A DNA stretch of 64,000 bases. Source: Siculibacillus lacustris (GTDB lineage Bacteria > Pseudomonadota > Alphaproteobacteria > Rhizobiales > Ancalomicrobiaceae). Position 1 is the stretch's first letter; each line of letters starts with the position of its first letter. Positions 1-36,122 of the stretch are shown here, piece by piece. Location: NCBI RefSeq assembly GCF_004328075.1, contig NZ_SJFN01000003.1, forward strand, positions 132,293 through 196,292, written 5' to 3'. The position numbers were made by a program, and so were the translations under genes. Under the pieces are notes generated by a model. It saw nothing but the letters and a program-made list of their open reading frames with translations, ran no database searches and was not told where the DNA came from.

Positions 1-890
1 TGCGCATCGTCGAGGACTTCGTCTCCGAACCGGCCTTCGATCTCCTCACGCCGACGCCGATCCGCGCGCCGTTTCTGTTCGACGCGCCGCACAGCGGGCG
101 GGCCTATCCGGCCGCCTTCCTCGCCGAGAGCCGGCTCGACGCCCATGCCATCCGCGCCTCCGAGGACGCCCATGTCGACGCGCTGGTGCGGTCCTGCGTC
201 GATCGCGGCATGCCGCTCCTACGGGCGCGCTTTCCGCGGGCCTTTCTCGACGTCAATCGCGAGCCGCTCGAACTCGATCCGCGGATGTTCGACGGCCGCC
301 TGCCGGTCGACGCCAACACCCGGTCGCCACGGGTGACCGGCGGTCTGGGCACGATCCCGCGGCTGGTGTCGGAATCCGACGAGATCTATCGCGGGCGGAT
401 CCCGGTCGCCGAGGCGCTCGGGCGGATCGAAGGGATCTACCGGCCCTATCACGAGACGCTGCGGCGGACGCTGGGCGAGATCCACGGTCGTTTCGGCGTG
501 GCGGTGCTGATCGATTGTCATTCGATGCCGTCGGTGCAGCGCATGACCGAGACCGGCGGCCGGCCCGACGTGGTGCTCGGCGACCGCCACGGCACCAGTT
601 GCCATCCCGGGCTGATCGACGTGGTCTCGGCGCTGCTGCGCACCGCCGGCTACCGGGTGGCGCGCAACAAGCCCTATGCCGGCGGCTTCATCACCGAACA
701 CTACGGCCGGCCGGCCAAGGGCCTGCACGCCCTGCAGATCGAGATCGCCCGCGGCCTCTACATGGACGAGACGACGCTCGAACCGAATGGCGGCTTTTCC
801 TTGCTGCAGCGCGATCTGGACCGCTTGATCGGCGAGCTCGCCGGCAACTGGGGTCTGATCCTCGCCGGCGACGCCCAGGCCGCCGAATGA
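1..890 (+). CDS. N-formylglutamate amidohydrolase family protein (first base missing)
   Basis: The protein of about 296 residues matches the N-formylglutamate amidohydrolase family, zinc-dependent enzymes that release formate from N-formyl-L-glutamate at the end of one histidine-degradation route. Visible hallmarks are FDAPHSGRAYP near the N-terminus, DCHSMPS at about residue 172 and ALQIEIARGLYMDE near the C-terminus. The window opens with TG followed in frame by CGC ATC GTC, so the start codon is probably ATG or GTG with only its first base outside the window. No other hut gene lies in the window, so the substrate is inferred from the family; relatives in this clade can act on other N-acyl amino acids. 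Confidence 0.85.
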   Translation, partial: RIVEDFVSEPAFDLLTPTPIRAPFLFDAPHSGRAYPAAFLAESRLDAHAIRASEDAHVDALVRSCVDRGMPLLRARFPRAFLDVNREPLELDPRMFDGRLPVDANTRSPRVTGGLGTIPRLVSESDEIYRGRIPVAEALGRIEGIYRPYHETLRRTLGEIHGRFGVAVLIDCHSMPSVQRMTETGGRPDVVLGDRHGTSCHPGLIDVVSALLRTAGYRVARNKPYAGGFITEHYGRPAKGLHALQIEIARGLYMDETTLEPNGGFSLLQRDLDRLIGELAGNWGLILAGDAQAAE

Positions 891-925: not shown

Positions 926-1023
926 TAAAAAACGGGCCGCGCGCGAGAGCGGCGGCCCGAAAGTGGTATCAGGGAGGAAACGCCCGAGAAGGGCGGCGGC
1001 CGGACGCGAGCCCGACCGCCATG
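926..1023 (-). ncRNA. Candidate trans-acting small RNA (~97 nt) with CCUCC anti-Shine-Dalgarno linker
   Basis: On the minus strand a near-consensus promoter (TTGACA at 1057-1052, 16-nt spacer, TAAATT at 1035-1030) points into a gap that ends in an intrinsic terminator. The predicted transcript starts near 1023. It can form a first hairpin (CGCCC, loop TTCTC, GGGCG), then an unpaired linker TTTCCTCCCTGATACC, then a terminator stem of 8 bp followed by six U. A single-stranded CCUCC between two hairpins is typical of anti-Shine-Dalgarno sRNAs of Rhizobiales and Rhodobacter, such as the alpha-r14 and cuckoo types; homology to those families was not tested. A 17-codon ORF starting ATGGCGGTC lies inside but has no ribosome site. 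Confidence 0.6.
927..959 (-). terminator. Intrinsic terminator of the sRNA candidate / DUF2332 gene
   Basis: CGGGCCGC (933-940) and GCGGCCCG (952-959) form a perfect 8-bp stem. On the minus strand the stem is followed by six T residues (complement of A 927-932), a textbook Rho-independent terminator. It would also stop read-through from the DUF2332 gene. Confidence 0.85.
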
Positions 1024-1029
1024 TCTTAA

Positions 1030-1057
1030 AATTTATATTGCGTCGCACAAATGTCAA
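1030..1057 (-). promoter_or_regulatory. Housekeeping-type promoter for the candidate sRNA
   Basis: Minus-strand TTGACA (1057-1052), 16-nt spacer and TAAATT (1035-1030). The -10 region sits in an AT-rich patch (1026-1039) that stands out from the surrounding GC-rich sequence. The -35 box contains the stop codon of the upstream DUF2332 gene, so the promoter is embedded in that gene's 3' end. Confidence 0.6.
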
Positions 1058-2133
1058 GGGCTTTCGCGAACGTTTCGCAAGTGTCCGATGGTCCACGCGA
1101 CCCAGCGACCGTGGAAGTCGGCGCGGCCGAGCGCGCGGGTCTCGCCGCCCGGCCACAGCGTGAGCAGGACGGCGGCGGACTCGGGGGCGACGGCATCGCC
1201 CTCCATGCGCAACCAGGCGAGCGGCGCCGCGGCGGTGGCCGCCGCGCCCGCCGCGGCGAGCCGGTCGGTGATGCGGGCGCGGGTCGCCTCGGCCATGTAT
1301 TGCCAGGCGACCGAATGCATCACCACGCGGACGCGGCCGGAACGGGGCGGGGCGGCGAGATGATCCTCCGTCCAATCGCCGGCTTCGGCGCGCTCGACCC
1401 GGAGGCCGGCCGCGGCCGCCGCTTCGAGAGCGGCGCGGGTGCGCTCCAGGCGTTCGGTCTGGTCGGCCCAGATGTAGGCGAGCAGGCGGCGCCGGTCGTG
1501 CGGATCGCCGGGATCGATCGGCATCAGGTCGCAGCCGGCACGCGCGATCACCGCGAGCGGGGCGTCGAGCGGCGGCGGCGTGCCGCGCCAGTCGCAGGCG
1601 ATGCGGACGGCCGACGCGGCCGGCCCCCAGGTGCCGACCCCGAGGTCGTAGCGATGGCGGTCGAACAGCAGGTTGAGCCCGGCGCTCGCCCCGATTTCGA
1701 AGAGTTCGAGCGGCAGCCCGGTCTCGGCGGCGACGACCAGTGCGCCGCCGAGCAGCACCGCCGAGCGGCCGACCTCGTTGGTCTGCGGTGGGCTCGCGAG
1801 GCCTTCGGTGAGGCGGAGATCGAAGCGCGGCAGGATGTCGGCGATCACCCCGGCGAGGCGATGGTCGTCGACCCGCTCGGGTGGCCACACCGCGGCGAGT
1901 TCGGCGGCGTCGCCGGAATGGGCGAGGGCATTGAGGGCGCCGCAGGCGCGCAGCGCCAGGGCATCGCGCCGGGGATCGCCGGTCCAGGTCAGGATGCGGC
2001 GACCGAACGCGGTGGTCCGGTCGAGGTCCCGGGCGAGGATGTCGCAGAGGCGCGCCGTGAAGGGCGAGCCGAGGTCGCGGCACATCCGCGCCTGGTTGTG
2101 CAGAGCTTCCACGATCGCCGCGGATTCGGTCAT
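1054..2133 (-). CDS. DUF2332 family protein
   Basis: A 359-residue protein that I recognise as the uncharacterised DUF2332 family. Features resembling that family are ARMCRDLGSPFTARLCD near the N-terminus, the LFEIGASAGLNLLFDR stretch in the middle and the C-terminal WRMEGD-like segment (LRMEGDAVAPESAA). LFEIGASAGLNL resembles the glycine-rich loop of SAM-dependent methyltransferases, but no function is established. I chose the ATG at 2133 because GGGAG lies 7 nt upstream; the frame stays open further upstream only as a shadow of the divergent hisN gene. The stop codon lies inside the -35 box of the sRNA candidate. The gene is probably transcribed alone. Confidence 0.85.
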   Translation of the reverse strand: MTESAAIVEALHNQARMCRDLGSPFTARLCDILARDLDRTTAFGRRILTWTGDPRRDALALRACGALNALAHSGDAAELAAVWPPERVDDHRLAGVIADILPRFDLRLTEGLASPPQTNEVGRSAVLLGGALVVAAETGLPLELFEIGASAGLNLLFDRHRYDLGVGTWGPAASAVRIACDWRGTPPPLDAPLAVIARAGCDLMPIDPGDPHDRRRLLAYIWADQTERLERTRAALEAAAAAGLRVERAEAGDWTEDHLAAPPRSGRVRVVMHSVAWQYMAEATRARITDRLAAAGAAATAAAPLAWLRMEGDAVAPESAAVLLTLWPGGETRALGRADFHGRWVAWTIGHLRNVRESP

Positions 2134-35570: not shown

Positions 35571-36122
35571 GGTCGGGTCTCCCCCCGGGCAGAGCGTGCC
35601 GGCAGACGGGCCGGCGTTCGGTCATCCCCGCGTCGGGCCGTCGAGACGGCCTCCTTCGGGCGTTTCCTCCGCGCCGCGGATCCAACCGCTGCGCGAAAGT
35701 GTTCGGGGGGTTCGACTTCATCGTGCGGACCGCTTTGGAGACGGTCGTACGATGGCGACGAGCACCCGATGAGCCGGCGGCGAAGCCGACCCGAACCCGC
35801 GCAATCAAGGGGCGCGGACCCCTCCGATCCCCAGACGACGCCTATCGTCGGGAAGACCGGATTTGCTGCCATGGCTTGGATGGGAGAGCCCCGTCCGCAC
35901 GCCGGCAAGGAAGTAGTTGCCTCTTCAGTAACCCCGGCCTTTGGAGAGCCGGCAGAGACCAAAAAAGCCCTCTACGTCGTTGCTTCAAGCCACGTCCCCC
36001 GTGTGAGACACAGGGTGCGCCGGTTAACTCCGGCTGCCGGTTGCCCCGCTGATGGTCCGGGCCTCTTGTCCCTGGAACATCAACGACCGGCACGCGGCCA
36101 CAGGCACGTGCGAATTTGGGCG
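35571..36122 (-). ncRNA. Candidate speF-type structured leader of ornithine decarboxylase
   Basis: The minus-strand leader of ~552 nt contains an AT-richer, strongly structured part at about 35840-36122. A helix CCCTGTGT/ACACGGGG (36015-35997) closes a CTC triloop; its one non-Watson-Crick pair is G-U on the minus strand but A-C on the plus strand, pointing to a minus-strand RNA. Further stems are GCCGG/CCGGC at 36034-36019 and CCGGC/GCCGG at 35951-35933, and a T6 tract lies at 35966-35961. The alphaproteobacterial speF motif is known upstream of ornithine decarboxylase genes; identity is inferred from position and structure. A 99-codon ORF crosses this leader but is probably a by-product. 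Confidence 0.6.

Follow-up and report, generated by a model that had tools for sequence, protein, structure and literature searches.

A predicted FGase-linked alpha-r8 (MmgR/SisA-type) small RNA gene with a PhaR-like operator in Siculibacillus lacustris

Introduction

A preliminary description of DNA from Siculibacillus lacustris placed a hidden small RNA (sRNA) gene at positions 926-1057 of the window (the whole 64-kb stretch that was analysed, to which all coordinates refer unless a locus is named). This raises the question of whether the unit is a genuine gene and, if so, to which family it belongs and what controls it. Judged from the sequence evidence set out below, the unit is a true sRNA gene, and its promoter carries a candidate site for a known regulator.

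Results

Locus and promoter

The unit is intergenic, between a DUF2332 gene and the gene for FGase (N-formylglutamate amidohydrolase), the latter running open at the left edge of the window.

3-890, plus strand: FGase gene, convergent neighbour (Pfam PF05013, E 1.6e-76)
927-1022, minus strand: predicted alpha-r8/MmgR sRNA transcript of ~96 nt, ends inferred
1035-1030, minus strand: -10 box TAAATT (from sequence)
1051-1036, minus strand: 16-nt spacer separating the -35 and -10 boxes
1057-1052, minus strand: -35 box TTGACA, overlapping the TGA stop codon (1056-1054) of the DUF2332 gene
1054-2133, minus strand: DUF2332 gene, same direction and upstream of the sRNA (Pfam PF10094, E 3e-104; position of the start codon inferred)

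Within the first 4 kb the TTGACA/TAAATT pair is the sole sigma-70-like site, where 0.1 would be expected from shuffles. Both boxes, the 16-nt spacing and the overlap of the -35 box with the DUF2332 stop codon agree with the preliminary description. Its view that the unit sits inside the 3' end of the DUF2332 gene has to be revised, as the RNA is intergenic and the -35 box alone touches the stop codon.

Family assignment

Although the unit had been considered unassignable to any family, it matches the Rfam 15 model RF00519 (suhB/mmgR) at 52.2 bits (E 7e-8; gathering cut-off 41), the match spanning 919-1001 and covering the model end to end (1-77). The hallmarks of alpha-r8 sRNAs are the 10-mer UUUCCUCCCU located 3' of a weak hairpin, a Rho-independent terminator and, usually, adjacency to FGase (PMC12559287). 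All of these are present here, the 10-mer being unpaired and having exactly the sequence published as the alpha-r8 core (PMC12559287). On these grounds we assign the unit as an FGase-linked alpha-r8 (MmgR/SisA-type) sRNA gene of an Ancalomicrobiaceae (Hyphomicrobiales) bacterium, and thus as an additional member of an already known, widespread family, whose sRNAs act by occluding the ribosome-binding sites of mRNAs. The broader proposal of a trans-acting type of sRNA, carrying an anti-Shine-Dalgarno linker between a promoter and a terminator of its own, is upheld. Other weak Rfam matches, including RcsR1 and BjrC1505, fall far under their cut-offs. Elsewhere in the window (35792-36121, minus strand), a speF leader (RF00518) adjoins an ar45 sRNA match (RF02347), each exceeding its cut-off.

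RNA structure and sequence conservation

The predicted fold of the unit has a free energy of -53.9 kcal/mol (z = -5.5 against dinucleotide shuffles) and contains three hairpins, SL1, SL2 and the terminator, rather than the two originally claimed.

1020-995, minus strand: SL1, strong 5' stem-loop of 11 bp (predicted fold)
994-982, minus strand: SL2, weak stem-loop GCCC-UUCUC-GGGC (predicted fold, alignment)
980-971, minus strand: 10-mer UUUCCUCCCU, unpaired seed and anti-Shine-Dalgarno (alignment, fold, published core)
970-960, minus strand: extended linker GAUACCACUUU, exceeding the usual AGACUU in length (alignment)
959-927, minus strand: intrinsic terminator, 8-bp stem and U6 (fold and alignment; sequence and prediction only)

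A 5' hairpin is also predicted in orthologues. In the MFE fold the segment TTTCCTCCCTGATACC (980-965) remains single-stranded, which bears out the earlier reading of an unpaired anti-Shine-Dalgarno CCUCC linker. Equally, the perfect 8-bp hairpin and U6 described at the end of a ~97-nt unit are recovered, with the stem CGGGCCGC/GCGGCCCG pairing 959-952 with 940-933 ahead of T6 at 932-927.

Across 41 aligned copies the 10-mer is invariant. However, these copies were gathered by a match to TTTCCTCCC, which required nine of the ten letters beforehand, so that independent evidence for conservation of the 10-mer comes from the FGase loci (79 of 80, see below). At least nine of the ten seed bases are free in the predicted folds of 30 of the 41 copies. 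The two inner pairs of SL2 never change and one outer pair changes from GC to AU in three copies, while the terminator helix is paired in 100% of copies and has two pairs changed on both sides. Taken together, 98.5% of cells in the two conserved helices are paired and 15 cells are changed on both sides, compared with 3.5 in shuffles, a covariation signal of modest strength, since half of the pairs are invariant; shifting the helix partners along the alignment destroys pairing. The window copy reads GAUACCACUUUC at the place where most copies have AGACUU. This extended linker is common to copies in Pinisolibacter (G003), G009 and G013, occurs in a longer form in g3 genomes and is absent elsewhere.

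Conservation of the FGase-linked locus

When GTDB genomes were searched with the FGase protein, 80 loci came up, and 79 of them carry the core GGGAGGAAA (CCUCC) on the opposite strand, shortly beyond the FGase gene. The TTG of the -35 box is invariant in 80 scored orthologous promoters, and the aligned FGase-linked promoters have CTTGAC-n-TTTGTGC-n3-GCA in common; the -10 position of a Pinisolibacter locus (L009) reads TAATAT. A conserved promoter and CCUCC, which the preliminary description proposed to look for in relatives, are both found. At the FGase loci of Bosea and Ancylobacter (L047, 4183-4906; L085, 4182-5418), three alpha-r8 cores lie in tandem 3' of FGase.

A PhaR-like operator in the promoter

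The promoter spacer, which had been taken as empty, contains a conserved regulatory palindrome.

1033-1053, minus strand: PhaR/AniA-like operator CATTTGTGCGACGCAATATAA between the -35 and -10 boxes, core TGC-GAC-GCA at 1039-1047

Within the 16-nt spacer, TTGTGC-GAC-GCAATATAA matches the operator of PhaR (AniA), a sensor protein for the stored carbon polymer. In S. meliloti, PhaR binds the mmgR promoter in EMSA, with CAATTGTGCACCGCAGCATTA as the listed site, and the shift is lost when the palindromes are mutated (PMC12542648). The window site CATTTGTGCGACGCAATATAA fits the PhaR motif (YGCRNYGCR with AT-rich arms), including the same first-base mismatch as S. meliloti mmgR, and 94% of 85 FGase-linked promoters contain the palindrome core YGCRNYGCR, compared with 10% for Markov shuffles. 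The S. lacustris genome encodes PhaR once, together with three phasin genes that each have PhaR-type palindromes upstream. In its 5.0 Mb, exact TTGCNNYGCAAYAT palindromes are limited to two sites, both before phasin genes, and TTGTGCNNYGCAA is found three times, in the window promoter, before one phasin gene and once elsewhere. The window promoter palindrome looks like a known PhaR binding site and, as a predicted link to this regulator, extends the published S. meliloti result. The phasin-associated palindromes lie at L186 1889-1950 and at L187 1277, 1957 and 1975, and are single or paired.

Paralogs and alternative explanations

Of the six alpha-r8 copies in the S. lacustris genome, five exceed the cut-off and the sixth scores 38.7 bits; relatives within the bacterial family have one to eight matches at E 0.01, some of them weak. 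To assess control of copies that are not FGase-linked, we used a 65-nt window ending 45 nt before the 10-mer, picked after viewing the FGase-linked promoters. The PhaR-like palindrome core is present upstream of 20 of 28 such family copies (11 of 17 promoter groups, the relatives being not fully independent of each other), compared with ~8% at control positions (0-18% at twelve other offsets). Among the four unlinked S. lacustris copies tested, with the sixth, weak copy left out, the palindrome is present in one (L001) and absent in three. L002 and L004, ~5 kb apart on contig C90, have similar promoters with repeated CACAAT boxes and no PhaR-like palindrome. In Pinisolibacter G003 (L127, L128) and in G013 (L130) there are additional alpha-r8 copies with the extended form of the linker, which have in common an upstream palindrome of the type GATG-TGCATCGCA-GCATC. 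FGase was not found near these three copies, which represent an apparent duplication of the FGase-linked form.

The sRNA shares its strand with the DUF2332 gene and follows directly after that gene's stop codon, as would be the case if it were excised from the 3' UTR of the DUF2332 mRNA and the promoter-like boxes were unimportant. We consider such an origin very unlikely, since the promoter region is conserved at FGase-linked loci in many genera and, according to tblastn of the FGase loci of the family, DUF2332 occurs only at the window locus whereas the sRNA and its promoter are kept; MmgR and SisA are, moreover, independent genes. Marginally less likely again is that the window copy is decaying, its linker having drifted while one of the other five does the work. 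It does score lowest of the five above the cut-off (52 bits against 61-67 for the four paralogs) and has the longer linker, which is probably the cause of the low score. Yet its 10-mer, SL2, terminator, promoter and operator are all intact, and Pinisolibacter has further copies of the extended-linker form. Moreover, the linker is unchanged in Pinisolibacter despite an FGase protein identity of only 64%, which suggests constraint.

Alpha-r14 and cuckoo RNAs likewise combine a CCUCC anti-Shine-Dalgarno with a hairpin layout, and the preliminary description had likened the unit to them. The Rfam scan it suggested did return a family, but that family is suhB/mmgR, far ahead of all else, and no ar14- or cuckoo-named model is among the Rfam 15 matches up to E 10 (a cuckoo model is possibly absent from Rfam). 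Given also the FGase neighbour and the exact 10-mer, both alpha-r8 hallmarks (PMC12559287), the likeness is unsupported and membership of either family has a negligible probability, leaving the assignment to alpha-r8 as our preferred reading.

Targets, Hfq and sponge searches

SisA pairs in an Hfq-dependent manner via the 10-mer and represses an mRNA in its 5' UTR; Hfq is also encoded in the S. lacustris genome. The exact complement AGGGAGGAAA occurs at eight genome sites, five of them antisense to alpha-r8 copies, one antisense inside an apparent polynucleotide phosphorylase gene (identified by eye) and two at ribosome-binding sites. The full 10-base complement stands just before the start codon of an aldehyde dehydrogenase gene and of a DUF1269 protein gene, sites that we treat as leads only, since any strong Shine-Dalgarno complement would look like the core. 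No conserved target emerges, as motif-bearing ribosome-binding sites differ between S. lacustris and its relatives, with the exception of an aldehyde-dehydrogenase-like gene with the motif common to G003 and G009. The phasin ribosome-binding sites, compared by eye, offer the 10-mer 4-5 contiguous pairs at best, and direct phasin control is therefore unsupported here. For MmgR, direct pairing is likewise not established in the literature consulted, and MmgR without the 10-mer leads to more PHB. No counterpart of the CrfA sponge known for the Caulobacter siblings was seen in S. lacustris, where exact 9- and 10-mer searches of the genome revealed no CrfA-like intergenic hairpin.

Discussion

We propose that the window unit is very probably an Hfq-assisted, anti-Shine-Dalgarno alpha-r8 sRNA with a PhaR/AniA-like operator, which would be released when PHB titrates PhaR. 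PhaR would repress the sRNA promoter in the absence of PHB, and the sRNA would be made when PHB granules titrate PhaR or when nitrogen is limiting. With Hfq, the CCUCC core could then pair with Shine-Dalgarno regions and reduce protein synthesis from genes for carbon storage, uptake and metabolism, which would keep PHB build-up in check.

The unit resembles S. meliloti MmgR in its 10-mer core, weak hairpin, terminator, promoter PhaR palindrome and FGase-linked position (seen in Sinorhizobium loci). However, MmgR is 77 nt and single-copy, whereas the window unit is predicted at ~96 nt, is one of six copies and has a longer linker. SisA-D, the alpha-r8 siblings that CrfA sponges in Caulobacter crescentus, have the same 10-mer core in multiple copies, including the FGase-linked SisA. 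According to the Caulobacter paper, the sisA-D promoters have no motif in common; in contrast, a PhaR-like palindrome is common to most of the family copies here. AbcR1/2 (alpha-r15) are similar in their CU-rich anti-Shine-Dalgarno and belong to the Hfq-bound class, but form a separate family with two anti-SD motifs and, according to a review, only partial homology to suhB (PMC7143759).

The palindrome pattern at the paralogs is the one part for which we found no description in the literature consulted, and the lineage-specific longer linker is also noted. A tentative extension, to which we give somewhat less than even weight, is that most alpha-r8 copies of the bacterial family are under PhaR control, its palindrome having been kept or regained by unlinked paralogs whose promoters differ in other respects, and that the extended linker of the FGase-linked copy in one sub-lineage could lengthen or redirect target pairing. 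If true, the level of PHB would set the dose of the entire anti-Shine-Dalgarno sRNA set.

A previously unassigned unit is now placed in a known regulatory family, with a probable input named. Conservation of the PhaR-type operator at the sRNA promoter extends across Hyphomicrobiales, the operator reappears at unlinked paralogs, and a circuit leading from PHB to an sRNA becomes testable beyond S. meliloti.
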